A DNA stretch of 64,000 nt from Longitalea luteola. Its GTDB lineage: Bacteria; Bacteroidota; Bacteroidia; Chitinophagales; Chitinophagaceae. The position numbers were made by a program, and so were the translations under genes. Shown here piece by piece: positions 14,731-63,222 of this stretch (within the stretch, counting starts at the first letter, position 1; each line of letters starts with the position of its first letter). Below the pieces are notes generated by a model, which was given only the letters and a program-made list of their open reading frames with translations, ran no database searches and was not told the DNA's origin. The stretch spans positions 496,001 to 560,000 of the forward strand of contig NZ_JAFIQX010000001.1 in assembly GCF_017356035.1 (NCBI RefSeq), read 5' to 3'.

Positions 14731-14882
14731 GTTACCGGTTACCCGGTACCGGTTCCAGGATTCCACGTTACAAGTTGCAGGGCTTTAGCGGCAATGGCTG
14801 AATGCCAAGCGAAGTTCACAAATTCCCGGGATCGGGGAACTGCTAACCGGCGCCCTGTAACCTGAAACTTGTAACCTGTAAC
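14731..14882. repeat. Heptad arrays in inverse orientation (GTTACCG / CTGTAAC)
   Basis: Left array 14731-14779, seven units (GTTACCG, GTTACCC, GGTACCG, GTTCCAG and so on). Right array 14855-14882, four units (CTGTAAC, CTGAAAC, TTGTAAC, CTGTAAC), which read on the other strand as GTTACAG-type units. The two can pair around a 75-bp centre containing GGGCTTTAGCGGCAATGGCTG; a similar centre occurs in the element at 33939-34083. Confidence 0.75.
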
Positions 14883-18732: not shown

Positions 18733-18870
18733 CTAATGGCCATTAGGATTTCTGATTTCTGGATTTCGGGATTTTGCGATTGATAAATCTGCTGTGCAAA
18801 AAGAAATCTCCAAACCTGCCTGCCGGCAGGCAGGTCTCTAGATCTCAAAATCAGAAATCAAAATACCTGG
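18733..18870. repeat. Nested inverted repeats with GC-rich core
   Basis: Contains a perfect 14-bp palindrome CTAATGGCCATTAG (18733-18746), a left array of ATTTCTG-type units of 7-9 bp (18745-18782), a perfect 22-bp palindrome (18814-18835; half site ACCTGCCTGCC) and a right arm (18841-18870) that is the inverse of the left array (ATTTCTGATTTTGAG on the minus strand). No gene; it lies between the DUF4450-like and beta-barrel genes and could act as a transcript-end hairpin. Confidence 0.75.
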
Positions 18871-22995: not shown

Positions 22996-23053
22996 GAGCG
23001 CTTATTTGCTAAAAGATACGATTTTTTAACGAGGATCTACAGCCTGGGTAAGA

Positions 23054-23145
23054 ATTACGAAGTAAGAAATAAGAAGTACGAAGACTGAGCTAAGCGATTA
23101 AGGTATGAGGTTTAAAAATCAGTTGACTTCTTACTTCTTATTTCA
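23054..23145. repeat. Inverse heptad arrays (AGTAAGA type)
   Basis: Left array 23054-23088 (ATTACGA, AGTAAGA, AATAAGA, AGTACGA, AGACTGA). Right arm 23124-23145 reads TGAAATAAGAAGTAAGAAG on the minus strand, the same motif in inverse orientation. A transcript could fold into an AU-rich hairpin between the GH10 stop and the thioredoxin start. Confidence 0.75.
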
Positions 23146-28024: not shown

Positions 28025-28122
28025 TAATACTAGATTTATAGATCTTACATTACTAAGTTTTCTTTTCCCGTGCAAACGTGTTCTTGTCGTGAATCGTCAA
28101 TCGATCATCAAACCCTGTATTC

Positions 28123-28166
28123 CATTATAACATTATCATATTATCACATTATTACATTATCACATT
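28123..28166. repeat. Octad array, CATTATCA type
   Basis: Five 8-bp units in register (CATTATAA, CATTATCA, TATTATCA, CATTATTA, CATTATCA), with the sixth fading into the GH67 stop. The terminal segment CACATTGCTTAATGTG (28161-28176) is a small perfect hairpin over the GH67 stop codon. Confidence 0.75.
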
Positions 28167-30313: not shown

Positions 30314-30330
30314 ATGAATTCAAAGTTTCA

Positions 30331-30466
30331 GTTACCGGTTACCAGTTACCAGTCGCCGGGCCCTTATTGCAGATTGCAGTCACTCATTTAACTGCCCGGT
30401 ATGGGGAAACCAATAACCGGGAACTTTTGCCATTGCCAATTGCCAATTGTTTATTGCCAATTGTTC
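30331..30466. repeat. Heptad arrays between LacI and GH67 genes
   Basis: Left array 30331-30358 (GTTACCG, GTTACCA, GTTACCA, GTCGCCG). An inverse copy at about 30403-30425 reads GTTCCCGGTTATTGG on the minus strand. A second direct array of ATTGCCA-type units lies at 30432-30466, ending next to the LacI stop. The centre GGGCCCTTATTGCAG resembles the centres at 14780 and 33960. Confidence 0.7.
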
Positions 30467-31582: not shown

Positions 31583-32001
31583 ATGCATTTTTCTCTCTAA
31601 ATTAGTGTCGACAATTGCGTATCAATTGGTTGCCATGTTAATAAAAACGTTTGAAAACAAGGTTTCACCTACAAATTGTCGCAATAAAGACGGAAAGTGC
31701 GGCAGGAAGTTACAACCAGCGGGTAGCTTGCTCCGGACTTTCTTGTTTAATGGTTGTGGTGAAGGGCCAGTGGGCGAACAGCAGTTGGCAATTGGCCTTC
31801 AGCAAGGCTTCGGCGGGACGAGTTGGCAGTTTGCTGTAAGTTTGAGACCGTGCAAGTTCAGTATTAGTTTCATAAGCAGCGAGCCACTCACCTCGCCTGC
31901 GCTGTCGCTACCGACGGGCAAGCATTCACCATTCACCATTCACCATTGACCATTGACCATTCACCAACTATAAACTATAAACTGTGAACCTGGTATCAAC
32001 G
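31583..32001. other. 419-bp leader region before the esterase gene, with repeat core and heptad array
   Basis: No credible gene. Bases 31881-31920 form a GC-rich core that recurs in inverse orientation at 48805-48852 (31 of the first 36 aligned bases identical). Immediately after, 31923-31985 is a run of nine 7-bp units: CATTCAC three times, CATTGAC twice, CATTCAC, CAACTAT, AAACTAT, AAACTGT. The array touches the GTG at 31984, an alternative start of the esterase frame. Confidence 0.7.
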
Positions 32002-33938: not shown

Positions 33939-34083
33939 GTTCCCGGTTCCCGGTTACCAGGCCTTTAATGCAGCATGGCTGCCAATACTCAGCCTGCCAT
34001 GGGTTTGTGCCCCGGCAACTGGTAACTGGTAACAGGTAACTGAATTTCCTGTAACCTGCAACATGAAACCTGTAACTGTAACT
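33939..34083. repeat. Inverse heptad arrays between esterase and uxuA
   Basis: Left array 33939-33959 (GTTCCCG, GTTCCCG, GTTACCA). Right array 34014-34083, ten units in register (GGCAACT, GGTAACT, GGTAACA, GGTAACT, GAATTTC, CTGTAAC, CTGCAAC, ATGAAAC, CTGTAAC, TGTAACT), inverse to the left. Centre GGCCTTTAATGCAGCATGGC resembles that at 14780. Confidence 0.8.
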
Positions 34084-34118: not shown

Positions 34119-35288
34119 ATGGAGTATACTATGCGTTGGTTCGGGCCTAATGATCCCGTTCCCTTACAACATATTCGTCAGGCAGGATGTACCGGGGTGG
34201 TAACCGCATTACACCACATACCGGTTGGTGATGTCTGGACCATAGACGAGATCAACAAACGAAAGAATATGATCGAGACAGCCGGTATGAGCTGGACGGT
34301 CATTGAAAGCCTGCCCGTACATGAAGACATTAAAAAGCAAACCGGTAATTACAAACAGTATATTCAGCACTACCAGCAAAGCCTGCGTAATGTAGCGGCT
34401 TGCGGCCTGAAGGTGGTCACCTATAATTTCATGCCCATACTGGATTGGGTACGTACCGATATTGATTACGAAATGCCCGATGGCAGCAAGGCATTGTATT
34501 TCGAACGGCTGGCCTTTATTGCCTTTGATGTGTTCATGCTGGAAAGACCAGGTGCTGAAAAAGAATATACAAAGGAAGAACTTACTGCTGCGCGAAATTA
34601 CCTCGATACCATATCCCCTCAAAAAAAGGAAACCCTGTACCGTAATGCGCTGCTGGGGCTGCCGGGCAGTGATGAACCATTTACCAAAGAGCAGGTGCTG
34701 GCCGCATTAAAAACGTATCATCACATTGATGCCAGGAAGTTAAAAGAGCATTTGTTTTATTTTCTGCAACAGGTAGTTCCGGTAGCAGAAGAATGCGGGC
34801 TGAAAATGGCGATCCATCCGGATGATCCGCCGTACCCGGTGCTGGGGCTGCCCCGCATCATGAGCACAGAGCAGGATGTAAAGGATCTGCTGCAGGCTGT
34901 ACCTGCAAAAGCAAACGGCCTGTGTTTCTGCACCGGCTCGTTCGGGGTGCGGGCAGACAATGATCTGGCAGGCATGGTTCAACGTTATGGCGATTTTATT
35001 CATTTCGTTCACCTGCGCAGCACTAAACGCGACGGCGCCGGCAATTTTTTCGAAGCCGACCACCTTGCAGGTGACGTGGATATGTATGCGGTGATCAAAG
35101 AACTGGTGCTGGTTATGCGAAGGCGAGGCGTTTCACTGCCTATGCGCCCCGATCATGGCCACCAGATGCTCGATGATCTGAAAAAAACAACCTACCCGGG
35201 CTACAGCGCCATCGGCCGTTTGCGCGGACTGGCAGAATTGCGGGGTTTGGAACTGGGCATTGTTAGAAGTCTGAAGCCGGAGGTCTGA
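34119..35288 (+). CDS. uxuA: Mannonate dehydratase
   Basis: 389 residues, cytoplasmic, full length for UxuA. The start [23 protein letters not shown] is the family N-terminus; further signatures are [81 protein letters not shown] and [13 protein letters not shown], which include the metal-binding His/Cys/Asp residues. It dehydrates D-mannonate to 2-keto-3-deoxy-D-gluconate (EC 4.2.1.8) and so places glucuronate catabolism in this locus. The last codons (S-L-K-P-E-V-stop) are themselves the first units of a heptad array, so the C-terminus has been replaced or extended by repeat sequence. Confidence 0.96.
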
Positions 35289-35389
35289 AGTCTGAAGCCG
35301 GAGGTCTGAAGTCGGAAGTCTGAAGTCTGAAATTAGAAGGAGATTTTAAAATAAGATATTCTCTGACTTCTGACATCAGGCTTCTGACT
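35268..35389. repeat. Heptad arrays overlapping the 3' end of uxuA
   Basis: Left array 35268-35337, ten units in register: AGTCTGA, AGCCGGA, GGTCTGA, AGTCTGA, AGCCGGA, GGTCTGA, AGTCGGA, AGTCTGA twice, AATTAGA. The uxuA stop codon (35286-35288) is inside it. The right array 35362-35389 (TCTGACT, TCTGACA, TCAGGCT, TCTGACT) is the inverse type (AGTCAGA on the minus strand), giving a hairpin around a 24-bp centre. Confidence 0.85.
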
Positions 35390-35457
35390 TCGTGTATTGG
35401 CATAATTTTTTAAGACATTTCCCGAAGATACCTTATGTTCTCACCATTGGATTGTTT

Positions 35458-36453
35458 ATGAGGCGCCTACTTAGATATGGTATTTTATGGTGGATGCTGT
35501 TACCACTGCCATTTGCGGCAGAAGCCCAAAAGGAGCTGTTTAAAAAAATGGACAGTTTAAGCCGCATCCCTCCTTACTTAAAACGAGGCAACAAGGACAG
35601 TATAAGGCGCGAATTCTACAATCAAACCACAAAGATCACCTTCCCCGTTTACTGGAAATTACTGGCCAGTGATCTGAAACAACAGGTTACCTCGCCATTT
35701 TATGCAAAACCACGGTTGTGGTACCGGACAGCCGCAGTAGCAGGCGTTACTGCCGGCGTATTGTTGCTGGATGTACCCATCAGCCGGAATGCAGTGGACT
35801 GGCGGAAGAATAGTACTACCCTGGTGAGCACCAGTAAATATATAACCCGCTTTGGCGGCGCTTATGAGGTGTATACCCTGGCTGCGCTGGGAACGTATGG
35901 TTGGCTCTTTAAGAACGAAAAAATAAAGACCACCACCTTGCTGGCTACACAGGCATATATTACCTCTGCGGTGATCTTTGAAGCAGCCAAGTTTTTATCG
36001 GGCAGGCAGCGGCCCTATTATTACGATCCTGAAACCAACACAAACAGTCCGGCCTGGCATGGCCCCTTTTACCAGTTCAGGAAAGATGAGAACGGCAACC
36101 GGCCGGATAGTTATTCGTATACCTCCTTTCCATCCGGGCATACCTGTCTGGCCTTTGCAGCAGCTACTGTATACGCCATGGAATACAGCGACCGGCCACT
36201 GGTGAAGATCTCTGCATATACTGCGGCGTCTTTAATTGGTTTAAGCCGGATCACCGAAAACAAGCACTGGGCTTCCGATGTATTGATAGGTGGCATTCTG
36301 GGCCATTTGATCGGCCGCCAGGTGGTCAATAACTATCACCGTTATGCCAAGCTGAAATCGGAAGAGGCCGCTAAAAACAGGAACACACTCACGTTTGCCC
36401 CGCAATTTCAATTCGGGCGCTGGCTGCCTGGTGTTGTGTATACGTTCAATTAA
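35458..36453 (+). CDS. PAP2-family membrane-associated phosphatase
   Basis: Start taken at the ATG at 35458 (331 residues) with signal peptide MRRLLRYGILWWMLLPLPFAAEAQ; a GTG at 35392 in the repeat region is less likely. The three PAP2 acid-phosphatase motifs are complete: KFLSGRQRP, SFPSGHTCLAFAAA and SRITENKHWASDVLIGG. Several hydrophobic stretches (about 90-110, 150-180, 235-265) fit a membrane-associated phosphatase acting on lipid pyrophosphates or phosphatidic-acid-like substrates. It follows uxuA on the same strand but has no obvious role in xylan use. Convergent with GH89, with a hairpin-forming octad element between the two genes. Confidence 0.9.
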   Translation: MRRLLRYGILWWMLLPLPFAAEAQKELFKKMDSLSRIPPYLKRGNKDSIRREFYNQTTKITFPVYWKLLASDLKQQVTSPFYAKPRLWYRTAAVAGVTAGVLLLDVPISRNAVDWRKNSTTLVSTSKYITRFGGAYEVYTLAALGTYGWLFKNEKIKTTTLLATQAYITSAVIFEAAKFLSGRQRPYYYDPETNTNSPAWHGPFYQFRKDENGNRPDSYSYTSFPSGHTCLAFAAATVYAMEYSDRPLVKISAYTAASLIGLSRITENKHWASDVLIGGILGHLIGRQVVNNYHRYAKLKSEEAAKNRNTLTFAPQFQFGRWLPGVVYTFN

Positions 36454-36457
36454 ATCT

Positions 36458-36540
36458 AAGTTATTGAGTTCATAAGTTATTAAGTTTAAAAACAGTCAAG
36501 TCGGGGTTGAATAACTAAATAACTGAATAACTGAACAACT
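36458..36540. repeat. Inverse octad arrays between convergent genes
   Basis: Left units AAGTTATT, GAGTTCAT, AAGTTATT, AAGTTTAA (36458-36489). Right units GAATAACT, AAATAACT, GAATAACT, GAACAACT (36509-36540), whose inverse is AGTTATTC. The arms pair in 8-bp register around a 19-bp loop, and the GH89 stop codon (36539-36541) lies at the outer edge. The position between two converging stops suggests a two-way transcription stop. Confidence 0.8.
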
Positions 36541-38740
36541 ATTCAATTATCTTCCTGTATTTACGGTACATTGTTTGTGACAATTGCACCGCGTTACCAA
36601 TCGGCTGCGTGGGAAATGATTGCTGTGTTTTCACCCATTTCCATTCCCATTTTTTAATGGCTTCTTCAAACTGTTTCAGGTCGGGTTGCCTGCTTGTACG
36701 CAATGTTTCCTGCAGCATGGCAAAGAATTGCTGCCAGCGCGGTTTGTAGAAATCATTCAGCAAACCACTCCATTGGCGATTCGAGTATTCATGCAAAGGA
36801 CTATTGGCGTCGCCCCACAGCGTAATAAGATCGCGGGCGTTCTGTTCATACAAAGCTTTTTCGGCAGCAGTGGTGCCATGGCTGCGGGCGGCAGCTATCC
36901 ACGGTCCCAGCATAAAATCACGGCGGGTAGCCAGCAACTGATCCATATCACTGATCAATGCTAAAAAAGCGCGGCTGTATCTGTTAAATGCAGTACTGTC
37001 TTTTTCTTTATAGGCAGCTACCCACTTTTTTTGTAACGGCGCCGCATAATTGGCAAGCACCTGGCGGGTAAGATCAACCAGGTCATAGCGGAAACCATCA
37101 GTATTGACGCCTTTGGCGGCTGCCTGTATGAACAGGTCCCAGGCAGGAAGCAGGTCTTTGGGGGCGTAGTTCAGTTTGGTGCGGGTCCATACAGTGGTGG
37201 AGTCAAAAGTGGGGCGCCCGGTAATGATCGATTCGGCGCCGTCCCTGATCGCTGCGCCATTATAAACCGTTTTTCTGAGGATCTGCCAGGCGTTCACCAG
37301 GTCTTTATCAGCCGTTGAATAACGGTTCAATACGTATTTGGGCAACCAGGTATCCAGGTCAACAGCCCTTGTTTGCCAGGTGTGCTGCATCATCAGTTCA
37401 TACAACACCGGATTTTGTTCAATGGCTTCCATGGTTAATCCTATACCCCACAGCTTGCCTGAATTGTTATCATTTAATGCCTGGGCAGGCCCGGCTGCAA
37501 CTCCATCCATGCGTCCGAATAAATTTACATTGCCGCCAAAATTGTGCAACATATTCCAGATCCAGGGCTTGCCATAAAAGGCGTTGGTGCGTTTCCAAAC
37601 CGGTTCAATTTCTGTAGCAAGATCGAGCAGGATCATTTTATTATCGGGAACTGCTTTCAGCAAAGCTTCAATTTGCGGCGCTTTCCAGAATTTGCGGTCG
37701 CTATAGAACAGCCAGCCCTGCATAACCCAGGTTGCGGCTGTATCCGCCTGTTTCATGCCTTCATAGATCCGCGCGCTCAATGCCGATAAGAAGGCCGGGT
37801 CGTCAGACGGTGGCTCATTTTCATTAAATGTATCTGCGGAATACAAATGGTCTGTTCCAAACAGTTTGGTTTGCGTTTGCAGGAAACGTTTTCCGATCTC
37901 CGCAAATAATGGATCTTCCGAATCGAGGATGTAGGTATCAGCAAAACCATTCGTCCAGTTGGTGGCTTTTAGTTTTGCGTTCGGGTATTTCTTTTTAATC
38001 GCCGGTGGAACGTGACCGGTAAAGGCCGGCAGCACCGGTTTCATGCCCAGCTCTCGCTCGCGTTGCAGGATTTTTTCCTGCAGCTCTTTATGGCTTTTCA
38101 TCCAGCTCATTGGCAGCGGGCCGCCCCAGGCATCCAGGTTACCCATCCAGAACCAGGCGAAATAGGCAGGGCCGCAAAAGAAGTCTTTCAATTCCTGGTC
38201 AGTAAAGCCCATGTCTTTATATACCATATACCAGGTGTATTCTTCACCGGTAATGGCCAGCGGCATATTGATGCCATGCAAAGCCATCCAGTCGATCTCT
38301 TTTTGCCAGCGATCCCAGTCCCACCAGCTCATGCTGTAATTAAATGTGCAATAGTTGAGATAATAACGATATGTATAGGGGGTGAACTTATGCACTTTCT
38401 CTTTTACCACCGGCAGGCTGGCCGGCAAAAACAGGTTGGTGCCATTCCAGGTGATCTGGCAATGACAATATTCGGTGAGGTAATGATATAAAGCGGAAGC
38501 AACAGAAGTACCATTATTACCGCGCAGCACAATTTTACCGGCACGGCTTTCCACTTCAAAAAGATCTTTTCCGTTCTCCGGGGCTATTTCCTCTACAATA
38601 AAGTGGGATGCGTGTTTGGGTAATACCCGTTGGATAAGTGCGTAGGAAGCTTTTACATTTAATTGCGCAGCAATGGTTACAGGCAGCAGCAGGATCAGCA
38701 TAAGGCTGACCGCACGGGGCATTCTTTTTAGTTTAAGCAT
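36539..38740 (-). CDS. GH89 alpha-N-acetylglucosaminidase
   Basis: 733 residues with signal peptide ending VTIAAQ. The NAGLU three-domain layout is clear: N-terminal alpha/beta domain (about 25-120), TIM barrel with YRYYLNYCTFNYSMSWWDWDRWQKEIDWMALHGIN, ADTFNENEPPSDD and LLDLATEIEPVWKRT (the two Glu-bearing catalytic regions), and an all-helical C-terminal domain from about 470. Family GH89 hydrolyses terminal alpha-linked GlcNAc, as in heparan sulfate or mucin glycans. It stands alone here: the nearest transporter pair is 5 kb upstream on the same strand, past a sulfatase. Heparan-type or mucin-type substrates would fit GH89 plus sulfatase, but the two genes are separated by a long repeat-rich gap. 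Confidence 0.96.
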   Translation of the reverse strand: MLKLKRMPRAVSLMLILLLPVTIAAQLNVKASYALIQRVLPKHASHFIVEEIAPENGKDLFEVESRAGKIVLRGNNGTSVASALYHYLTEYCHCQITWNGTNLFLPASLPVVKEKVHKFTPYTYRYYLNYCTFNYSMSWWDWDRWQKEIDWMALHGINMPLAITGEEYTWYMVYKDMGFTDQELKDFFCGPAYFAWFWMGNLDAWGGPLPMSWMKSHKELQEKILQRERELGMKPVLPAFTGHVPPAIKKKYPNAKLKATNWTNGFADTYILDSEDPLFAEIGKRFLQTQTKLFGTDHLYSADTFNENEPPSDDPAFLSALSARIYEGMKQADTAATWVMQGWLFYSDRKFWKAPQIEALLKAVPDNKMILLDLATEIEPVWKRTNAFYGKPWIWNMLHNFGGNVNLFGRMDGVAAGPAQALNDNNSGKLWGIGLTMEAIEQNPVLYELMMQHTWQTRAVDLDTWLPKYVLNRYSTADKDLVNAWQILRKTVYNGAAIRDGAESIITGRPTFDSTTVWTRTKLNYAPKDLLPAWDLFIQAAAKGVNTDGFRYDLVDLTRQVLANYAAPLQKKWVAAYKEKDSTAFNRYSRAFLALISDMDQLLATRRDFMLGPWIAAARSHGTTAAEKALYEQNARDLITLWGDANSPLHEYSNRQWSGLLNDFYKPRWQQFFAMLQETLRTSRQPDLKQFEEAIKKWEWKWVKTQQSFPTQPIGNAVQLSQTMYRKYRKIIE

Positions 38741-38770
38741 AGATCGTTACTGGTTATCATACCAAAAGCA

Positions 38771-39029
38771 AAATCTCAAATTTCAAGCATCAAGAACCAA
38801 ATAAATTTCAGATTCAAAATCTCAAATTTCAAGCATCAAGAACCAAATAAATTTCAGATTCAAAATCTCAAATTTCAAGCACCAGGAACCAAATACATCT
38901 CAAATCCAGGATCTCAAATAATTCCCAAACCCAAATTTTTGCGATTTATATGCTGGATTTTAGTTGGGGCTTGAGATTTACAAGCTGGTACTTATCTGGT
39001 TCTTGAGATTTGTGATTTGGTTTTTGGGG
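38771..39029. repeat. 46-bp tandem repeat with inverse partner
   Basis: Units begin at 38771, 38817 and 38863, so the period is 46 bp; the first two are nearly identical and the third has diverged. Each unit starts AAATCTCAAATTTCAAG and itself consists of roughly 7-bp pieces (AAATCTC, AAATTTC, AAGCATC, AAGAACC). Bases 38955-39029 carry the same words in inverse orientation (TGGTTCTTGAGATTTG), so a long imperfect hairpin can form. Confidence 0.8.
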
Positions 39030-39081
39030 GCTTATTGGGCCGTCAAGATAAATCCAAATTTATTGACAGCCAAAAGCGGCA

Positions 39082-39118
39082 GCCAAACGTTTGGCGTTAA
39101 TAACGAAACCGGTTTCGT
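39082..39118. promoter_or_regulatory. Two adjacent perfect palindromes, LacI-operator-like
   Basis: GCCAAACGTTTGGC (39082-39095) and ACGAAACCGGTTTCGT (39103-39118), seven bases apart. Both have the central CG typical of LacI/PurR-family operators. The nearest downstream gene is GH89, whose start is about 340 bp away on the minus strand. No regulator gene is adjacent. Confidence 0.4.
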
Positions 39119-39194
39119 AGTATGTACCATCGGGCGGCGCGAGCTGACCCGATTGCTTACGCTGAATTGATAGGCGCGGGAAGTAGGAATGGCA

Positions 39195-39325
39195 AAGTAA
39201 GAAGTACGAGGTACGAAGTAGGAGGTACGAAGTAAGAAGTACGAAGTTTGAGTTAAAATTTAGTTGTTAGTTTAAAAAGTTAGATCTCTTCTTATGTCAT
39301 ACTTCATACTTCCTACTTCCTCCTT
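39195..39325. repeat. Inverse heptad arrays (AAGTACG / CATACTT)
   Basis: Left array 39195-39250: AAGTAAG, AAGTACG, AGGTACG, AAGTAGG, AGGTACG, AAGTAAG, AAGTACG, AAGTTTG. Right array 39291-39325: CTTATGT, CATACTT, CATACTT, CCTACTT, CCTCCTT, inverse of the left. Loop about 40 bp. Confidence 0.85.
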
Positions 39326-43460: not shown

Positions 43461-43522
43461 ATCGTGAATCGTGAATCCTGTATTTCATTAGCACATCAGC
43501 AAATCAGCACATCAGCACATCG
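43461..43522. repeat. Short heptad then octad array before the sulfatase gene
   Basis: ATCGTGA twice (43461-43474), the same motif as at 24270, then four octads GCACATCA, GCAAATCA, GCACATCA, GCACATCG (43491-43522). It fills the gap between the SusD stop and the sulfatase start. Confidence 0.75.
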
Positions 43523-48804: not shown

Positions 48805-48965
48805 GGAGAATGCTTGCCCGTTCGTAGCGATAGCGAAGGCGTGGGTCAATGGTGAAGCAATTGCAGGTTGAAAGTTGACGGCCTGCAACACGCAGACAAC
48901 GTATTTATCAGCCTTTTTCAAATTGACGCCTTGTGTCCTGTAACTTGTAACAGCCTTGATGGCTT
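48805..48965. repeat. Dispersed repeat core plus imperfect inverse heptad arms
   Basis: 48805-48852 is the inverse copy of the core at 31881-31930 (GAATGCTTGCCCGT shared, then GTAGCGA and AGGCG). It is followed by a 7-bp hairpin TTGCAGG/CCTGCAA (48861-48888) and by CTGTAACTTGTAAC-type units at 48938-48965 that are inverse to GTTACAG-type arms elsewhere. It ends next to the permease stop. Confidence 0.65.
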
Positions 48966-50336: not shown

Positions 50337-50476
50337 AGGGTACAAGTACGGGATTCAGGGCCTAATGTCACCTGGGGCAGCAAGGCTTTAGGAAGGCTTC
50401 TAGTATATTTTACACATTTTGCATTTGTGTATCCATCCATTTACGGAGATATTCCGGATCTTATTAGAGGCGAAAT

Positions 50477-50531
50477 ATCTCCGGAACATCTCCGGGATAT
50501 CTCGGGGATATCTCCGGGATATCTCAATTTC
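50477..50531. repeat. 11-bp tandem repeat (ATCTCCGGGAT)
   Basis: Five units in exact 11-bp register: ATCTCCGGAAC, ATCTCCGGGAT, ATCTCGGGGAT, ATCTCCGGGAT, ATCTCAATTTC. The period equals about one helical turn and is unlike the 7- and 8-bp arrays. The rest of the 394-bp gap 50275-50668 holds only the heptads at 50295 and the terminator at 50604. Confidence 0.8.
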
Positions 50532-57096: not shown

Positions 57097-57168
57097 AAAA
57101 GGCATAAAGGCAAAAGGCATAAAGGAACTTCCTCTATGCCTTTTCTCGTTGCCTTGATGCCTCGTTGC
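57097..57168 (-). terminator. Hairpin built from inverse heptad/octad arrays after the metalloprotease
   Basis: Left arm units AAAAGGC, ATAAAGGC, AAAAGGC, ATAAAGG (57097-57125). The right arm TATGCCT, TTTCTCG, TTGCCTT, GATGCCTC (57135-57165) is inverse. The best core is the perfect 10-bp pair AAAAGGCATA (57112-57121) with TATGCCTTTT (57135-57144) around a 13-base loop that pairs further. It directly follows the stop of the protease gene, so it probably ends that transcript. Confidence 0.6.
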
Positions 57169-57173
57169 CTTTC

Positions 57174-63040: not shown

Positions 63041-63222
63041 GTCAATAGTCAATAGTCAATGGGCAATAGACAATGGGCAAAAGCCAAACGGCAATCGACA
63101 ATCGTCAATTGGCAATAGACAATGGGCAAAAGCAAAACGGCAATCAACAATCGTCAATTGGCAATAGACAATGGGCAAAAGCCAAACGGCAATCGACAAT
63201 CGTCAATTGGCAATAGACAATT
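63041..63222. repeat. Satellite-like array: 26 heptads forming a 49-bp higher-order repeat
   Basis: All 26 units are in one 7-bp register. From 63062 the order GGCAATA, GACAATG, GGCAAAA, GCCAAAC, GGCAATC, GACAATC, GTCAATT repeats as a 49-bp block (63062-63110, 63111-63159, 63160-63208) followed by two units of a fourth. Blocks 1 and 3 are identical; block 2 differs at two bases. It lies immediately upstream of the GH16 gene. Confidence 0.92.

Follow-up and report, generated by a model that had tools for sequence, protein, structure and literature searches.

Facing arrays of short words between the genes of a soil bacterium and its relatives: arms, perhaps, of dispersed REPIN-like hairpin repeats

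Between the genes of a 64,000-nucleotide stretch from the 7.30 Mb genome of a soil bacterium (the window: G000:C11:496001-560000; coordinates marked C11 are those of the contig) lie tandem arrays of 7- and 8-base-pair (bp) words, and at a number of places a second array follows, across a loop, with the same word in inverse orientation. In the example at 36458-36540, the left arm consists of the 8-bp word AGTTATTG/AGTTCATA (36458-36487, plus strand) and begins 5 bases past a stop codon; the right arm, of the inverse word AATAACTG (36509-36540, minus strand), extends to the stop codon of the gene that converges from the other side. A sequence-only reading had placed this pair between two converging genes, and the gene calls bear it out: on the left is a frame of 353 amino acids (35392-36453, plus strand) with a weak match, far under the cut-off, to the undecaprenyl-diphosphatase SepP, and on the right a frame of 733 amino acids (36539-38740, minus strand) that carries no NCBIfam name; its best match is 84-89% identical whichever of the genus's nine other genomes is searched (G001-G009; with G000 they make ten genomes, placed in Niastella, family Chitinophagaceae, in this analysis). 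What are these facing arrays, and why do the two arms of a pair carry the same word?

The eight inverse pairs that the sequence-only reading listed are all present where it put them. Besides the one just described, and with left arms on the plus strand and right arms on the minus strand throughout, they are: GTTACCG/GTTCCAG at 14731-14783, facing CCTGTAA at 14852-14882; the 8-bp word GATTTCTG/GATTTCGG at 18746-18783, facing its inverse at 18841-18864, with the palindrome CCTGCCTGCCGGCAGGCAGG in the loop; GAAGTAC/GAAATAA at 23048-23083, facing CTTCTTA at 23125-23144; GTTCCCG/GTTACCA at 33939-33961, facing GGTAACT at 34014-34042, with one more array of this type just beyond, at 34048-34082; GAAGTCT at 35266-35331, whose sequence overlaps the upstream open frame at its end, facing CTTCTGA at 35362-35391; AAGTACG/GAAGTAA at 39195-39247, facing CATACTT at 39290-39325; and AAAGGCAT at 57097-57125, facing GCCTTGAT at 57135-57171, where the corresponding gap of G001 holds a plain hairpin without arrays. 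To these can be added GTTACCG at 30330-30373 (plus strand) with a more decayed right arm at 30380-30425 (minus strand), and a long inverse pair of AAATCTC/AAGAACC-type arrays at 38769-39031, a block that is missing from the orthologous G001 gap. (The palindrome CCTGCCTGCCGGCAGGCAGG, at 18814-18835, is a separate short dispersed repeat found in up to 14 of 735 sampled gaps, several of its copies lying within the loops of array hairpins.) The window has no Rfam match at gathering score, and ARAGORN finds no tRNA in it.

Pairing of this kind is far above chance. Folded as RNA and compared with dinucleotide shuffles, the listed pairs gave z-scores of -1.7 to -6.3 on the plus strand and -2.2 to -6.5 on the minus strand, and the arm-to-arm score was above the best of 150 shuffles in six of the eight (all except 14731/14855 and 33939/34014). 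The main sample comprises the window together with 800 kb of contig C22 of the same genome, 557 intergenic regions of at least 30 bp, with genes called by a greedy open-frame rule, so that small genes may hide in some gaps. Each region of 40-400 bp (the range used also for the T-rich ends discussed below) was compared with its own reverse complement at a score of at least 16, the control being one length-matched other gap: 188 of 466 regions self-paired, as against 6 of 466 with swapped partners. The excess is found in gaps with arrays (60/101, control 1/101) and also in gaps without them (128/365, control 5/365); thus, hairpins are common without arrays too.

Arrays of period 7 or 8 number 219 in the sample and are spread over 121 of its regions. 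Counting repeat segments that score at least 11, period 7 accounts for 108 and period 8 for 47 (shuffles: 1.0 and 0.4), periods 4 and 11 for 6 each (shuffles: 0.6 and 0.2), and period 10 for 2 (0.4), while periods 5, 6, 9 and 12 are at background level; counts outside periods 7, 8, 4 and 11 are 0 to 2. (The window also contains a period-11 array, ATATCTCCGGG, at 50475-50525, and higher-order tandem repeats composed of 7-bp words: 49 bp at 63043-63221 and 46 bp at 38769-38919.) Among 89 adjacent array pairs within one region, 38 are inverse matches and 30 direct; when the two arrays come from separate regions, 6.8% of 5961 sampled pairs are inverse matches.

The arrays of a pair are also arranged in a fixed order. 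GTTNC occurs in both orientations in 10 gaps (0.39 expected), always in the same order (10:0), and so does GATTT (10 gaps, 0.46 expected, 10:0). A search for ten words in G000 and G001 yields, from six of them, 32 distinct gaps with both orientations, ordered 32:0. Adjacent arrays of the same word obey the rule 33:2, both exceptions being in a single gap with three successive hairpins; among the places listed in six genomes, inspected by eye within 300 bp, the order is 19:0; and even neighbours of different words follow it (18:2, or 16 gaps against 1). (A technical note: the polarity of the ten words was assigned after inspecting hairpins of the same genomes, and GTSAAT, AAGGC, AACGC and AGTTATT gave no pair at threshold, their polarity being taken from decayed pairs or from other species.) Unpaired arrays follow suit. 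In gaps between co-directional genes they show no strand preference (46:51); arrays of left-arm type nevertheless lie near the upstream stop (median relative position 0.20) and those of right-arm type near the next start (0.69; p=2.6e-12). The six paired words taken alone give medians of 0.21 and 0.69 (p=5e-8), the other four words alone give p=1e-4, and the positions of unpaired arrays in convergent and divergent gaps agree with the co-directional result; a count by nearest edge, 202 of 243 arrays, includes paired ones. Unpaired left- and right-arm types stand where they would be expected to stand if the partner had been lost. Since a hairpin is identical on both strands, the polarity is a property of a DNA unit rather than of transcription. 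Arrays are scarce between divergent genes (7/95, as against 115/513; p=4e-4), a scarcity that tolerated insertions kept clear of promoters and elements of gene 3' ends would both show.

The sequence-only reading had given each locus a word of its own. That is wrong: words recur across many loci, species and genera. Identical words are found at many gaps, and two words were each found in all three Niastella genomes searched. ATTSACC has matches in 20 of 60 genomes of the family, G000 included, several of them with only one to three; G000 has 343, and G012 and G035, array-rich genomes of the same family but outside the ten-genome genus set, have 213 and 134. The trait is patchy: named loci of Chitinophaga, Mucilaginibacter, Pedobacter and Dyadobacter contain 3 such arrays in 197 gaps and five Niastella loci contain 30 in 33. 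In each of nine words, variation falls for the most part on one to three positions (p between 1e-3 and 1e-32). Most words are without GGG; GATTTCGG/AAATCCCG units contain it.

One word family has, in addition, a dispersed junction. On the loop side of TAATNTGN-family arrays, a count by eye finds the string TAATG[AG]AATACAG exact in 4 of 15 cases and altered at one or two positions in about five others. In the window, the inner junction TAATGGAATACAG at 28115-28127 (minus strand) adjoins an 8-bp array at 28123-28166, and a second copy, TAATGAAATACAG, at 43478-43490 (minus strand), adjoins an array at 43486-43521. The 13-mer TAATGRAATACAG was sought in nine Niastella genomes (the ten less G006) and in seven other genomes of the family, with a reversed control that gave 0-2 copies overall. 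It has 49 copies in G000, 43 in G001 and 59 in G004 (reversed control there: 0-1), 16-59 in each of G001, G002, G003, G004 and G007 (with G000, six of the nine Niastella), and 10 in G008; further word units stand on the arm side at 9 of 10 sampled copies. A shared junction end argues for descent of the members of this family from each other. (Another short dispersed repeat, with related GCTTGCCCGT...AGCGATAGCGAAGGCG sequences, adjoins ATTCACC-type arrays at 31900-31925 and 48805-48845.)

How do the arrays fare between species? At the gap with which we began (36454-36538), there are AGTTATT hairpins in G000 and G004, a GTTACC hairpin in G001, GAAGTAT arms in G008, other arrays in G005 and G006, and a short palindrome in G003; the gap measures 36 bp in G007 and 0 bp in G009, and the neighbouring gene is missing from G002. 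Comparison with G001 extends over 400 kb in which the aligned DNA is about 83% identical; gaps longer than 900 bp or without both anchors were dropped and 120 of 205 kept. In these 120 matched gaps, both species have the same word at 21, different words at 8 and no arrays at 66; at 19 and 6 only one species has arrays. With random partners, 8.0 of the 29 gaps with arrays in both would be expected to share a word. Blocks that one species has and another lacks include those at C11 471595, 473667, 518996 and 534741; the target-site duplication that marks a MITE is not evident by eye at such indels. (The array hairpins at G000:C11:552881 and 510702 have as G001 counterparts plain hairpins like GTGCCACAC...GTGTGGCAC, and a few further gaps have hairpins of similar sequence. 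The one tree computed in the analysis is nearly a star.)

Seven relatives provide 51 species pairs, across 18 gaps, in which both members have array hairpins (only hairpins scoring at least 16 with arms in arrays were used): the word differs in 22, is the same in 18, and falls between thresholds in 11. The proposal that the arms evolve together is supported by those 22, in which the word differs at both arms; the causes proposed for it fare less well, as will be seen. Mean arm pairing is 16.0 within species and 9.3 across species, in hairpins pre-chosen for having arms that pair. Since the orthologous gap of a relative often has both arms built of another word, or is empty, the arms appear, on these alignments, to change together largely as whole units.

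The reading that we favour, though not strongly, is that paired arrays are the arms of dispersed REPIN-like hairpin repeats that are replaced as wholes. Inverse pairing, polarity, shared vocabulary, fixed core, the junction of one family, presence or absence of blocks, word differences and absence of T-rich ends are computed; on these the proposal builds. What would define each family is its word of 7 or 8 bp, fixed at the core and free at a few positions, with a single polarity in which the word stands ahead of the loop and its inverse after it. Units would be gained, lost and replaced whole, mainly in gaps without a promoter pair; both arms would share a word because they arrived together, and unpaired arrays would mostly be remnants, the other half having decayed or been supplanted. 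The units may move or be copied between loci, as REPINs are thought to, perhaps by way of a single-stranded hairpin on which a trans-acting enzyme works.

Several observations weigh against this proposal. Loops are mostly unique: an array-masked comparison of 735 regions produced 85 matching pairs (among those listed, largely short palindromes and a few longer repeats). A version in which hairpins are copies of one element with a shared loop was rejected on that search, and unique loops weigh against mobility because recent copies should share them. Neither target-site duplications nor transposition intermediates were seen. The junction 13-mer is at background (0-2 copies) in G005, in G009 and likewise in the seven other family genomes. 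At 15 of 17 array loci of G012 and G035 no partner lies within 520 bp. In the 18 same-word pairs, orthologous arms resemble each other more than the two arms of one element do in 7 cases and less in 11, a tally that carries the same bias of hairpins selected for pairing; homogenisation of one arm by the other thus remains allowed. Finally, among length-matched gaps, G001 has some hairpin in 18 of 26 in which G000 has an array hairpin, as against 5 of 16 in which G000 has none (p=0.026), a hint that a hairpin may be useful at such gaps; selection on a hairpin predicts the same.

Is there an enzyme? A candidate, its role undemonstrated, is a Y1 transposase-like gene situated between the genes for DAHP synthase/chorismate mutase and 3-dehydroquinate synthase. 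It has one match in each of the ten genus genomes (86-93% identical in the nine relatives) and provides the one PF01797 match of G000 at E 1e-3 or better, although a divergent Y1 type seen in G001 and G003 could lie below that threshold in G000. Its protein, of 151 amino acids, has the Y---Q--HH signature (YIEKQEEHH) of TnpA_Y1 subclass 1.2, with DHMH and WD in G000 in place of the subclass key motifs DH[IV]H and WQ. Facing arrays of one word family stand upstream of the gene in 9 of 10 species (pairing is weak in G004, and G009 has merely 14 bp there); across 19 other gaps, each represented by at least six species, the most persistent word is kept in 6 of 8. (Downstream of the 3-dehydroquinate synthase gene, at L236:2989-3167, is a GTTAACCAG-type hairpin with the same word in G000, G004, G007 and G009.) That the Y1-like gene is the enzyme partner of the arrays seems to us unlikely: G012 and G035, rich in arrays as they are, lack a match to the protein; at other Y1 loci no arrays adjoin the gene except at L271 and L298, hairpins there being of other kinds or lacking; and inverse arrays are common enough to adjoin it by chance. 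Nor do arrays track PF01797, which four of seven array-free genomes have and three do not. A second Y1 type (179-201 amino acids, Y[IVLT]HxNP), seemingly correlated with arrays, was set aside: its frame was found at 10 of 14 loci, and the flanks there have other palindromes or none, and no arrays. (Y---Q--HH Y1 genes of other Bacteroidota also stand beside hairpins, at L255, L257, L261, L264, L267, L270, L273, L283, L285 and L298; several of these have CCTACGG, CCTTCGG or CGAAGG in arms or tips, and the 2018 survey cited below lists no subclass 1.2 REP.) A bolder extension would make the array hairpins a new class of REPIN, with the array as the recognised end, mobilised in trans by a domesticated subclass 1.2 Y1 enzyme, and with a vocabulary of words that evolves like an intragenomic population and rewrites the intergenic gaps of the genus; we consider it improbable, a shade more so than the enzyme link itself.

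Could the arrays instead be products of local mutation, with the 7- and 8-bp arrays built by slippage and one arm rewritten on the model of the other by fold-back template switching, neither selection nor mobility being needed to keep the arms matched? The strong preference for two periods, the mostly unique loops, and the greater closeness of arms within an element in 11 of those 18 pairs (hairpins, again, chosen for pairing) all fit, as does the Y1 locus, where inspection by eye finds CG-type outer units on both arms in G003, G005 and G007 and GG-type ones in most of the rest, the innermost unit being constant. However, local mutation does not predict a shared vocabulary, a fixed polarity, a dispersed junction, or variation concentrated at fixed positions, and we judge it unlikely. 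As to the two causes suggested in the sequence-only reading, selection on an RNA hairpin and copying of one arm from the other, the evidence for copying is mixed (the 7 and 11 above), and neither cause alone predicts the order of 32:0 or the sharing of words. Gain, loss and replacement of whole units explains more.

Selection of RNA hairpins at gene 3' ends, for termination, RNA stability or processing, with selection for pairing keeping the arms matched, is a weaker contender still. In its favour are the fold z-scores, the depletion of arrays between divergent genes, and the retention of a hairpin at orthologous gaps oftener than otherwise, despite a change of word or replacement by a plain hairpin. 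Termination as the main account is rejected on the 3' ends: of 64 array-hairpin ends 6% are T-rich, as against 31% of 202 plain-hairpin ends and a background of 12%; the plain hairpins do carry the T-rich end of terminators. Regularly spaced Rho sites were considered as well, and the papers searched offered nothing of use on them or on Term-seq. (The hairpin set omits regions longer than 600 bp and hairpins with overlapping arms; 25 of 293 hairpins, with arms only partly in arrays, belong to neither class.) Moreover, some species have no hairpin at the 36454-36538 gap, reduced as it is in G007 and G009; pairing alone leaves the polarity of words unexplained; and unpaired arrays are balanced between strands. 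Least probable is that the arrays are sites for a DNA- or RNA-binding protein that needs several cores at 7-8 bp spacing, with pairing a by-product: fixed cores with free positions in nine words and the preferred periods suit it, but ten or so unrelated cores would require as many specificities, and arrays are lost and replaced at orthologous gaps.

Whole-unit replacement in the manner of REPINs, the reading we prefer, invites comparison with the REPIN/RAYT system, taken here as described in part of the account of Bertels and Rainey (2011, PMC3116915). The likeness is one of architecture and behaviour: dispersed intergenic units with two inverted conserved ends around a spacer, which fold into hairpins as single-stranded DNA, lone copies that are interpreted as decayed halves, and a single-copy Y1 enzyme gene as the suspected partner. 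The ends here are tandem arrays of words, not single palindromic REPs, and for this reason we do not class the array hairpins as REPINs; there are, besides, many word families and one candidate enzyme, the link between them undemonstrated. For REPINs, those authors found putative intermediates in sequencing reads. As for that enzyme, the table of Quentin et al. (2018, PMC6006769) gives no REP for TnpA_Y1 subclass 1.2. Judged by that survey, the gene described here resembles the subclass in its signature, its one copy per genome and its occurrence in Bacteroidetes, and departs from it in the two altered motifs and in having arrays upstream in nine species. If a subclass 1.2 enzyme is in fact involved, an orphan enzyme class gains a candidate substrate. 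The TAACTGA repeats of Beggiatoaceae, cyanobacteria and some Bacteroidetes, as reported in sections of MacGregor (2015, PMC4679880), are likewise intergenic 7-bp arrays of patchy taxonomy and lineage-specific positions; in the main genome of that work they stand mostly before start codons, in 169 direct sets with one indirect repeat. The literature searched, which included PMC13155455 and PMC3733652 and excluded subscription papers and preprints, yielded no vocabulary of many words that obeys a single polarity rule, no such siting of unpaired arrays, and no exchange of one word for another at orthologous gaps.

The closest precedent is that of the inverted GGGAATC arrays of Xanthomonas (Rehm et al. 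2015, PMC4692102). The portions of that report on which we draw remark that an over-representation of heptamer repeats in many bacterial genomes was noted years ago, and describe 70 and 75 cases of convergent array pairs, potential stem-loops. There, as here, 7-bp tandem arrays are mostly intergenic, form convergent pairs of one polarity, are rarer between divergent than between convergent open reading frames, and have fixed and free positions within the unit. By the same portions, Xanthomonas has one G-rich word, with G-quadruplexes demonstrated; here there are about ten words, with 8-bp units as well and with differences in word at orthologous gaps. This genus offers about ten words under a single polarity rule, with replacement visible between species, which makes the origin of such repeats, whether by mobility, template switching or selection, testable by a comparison of strains.

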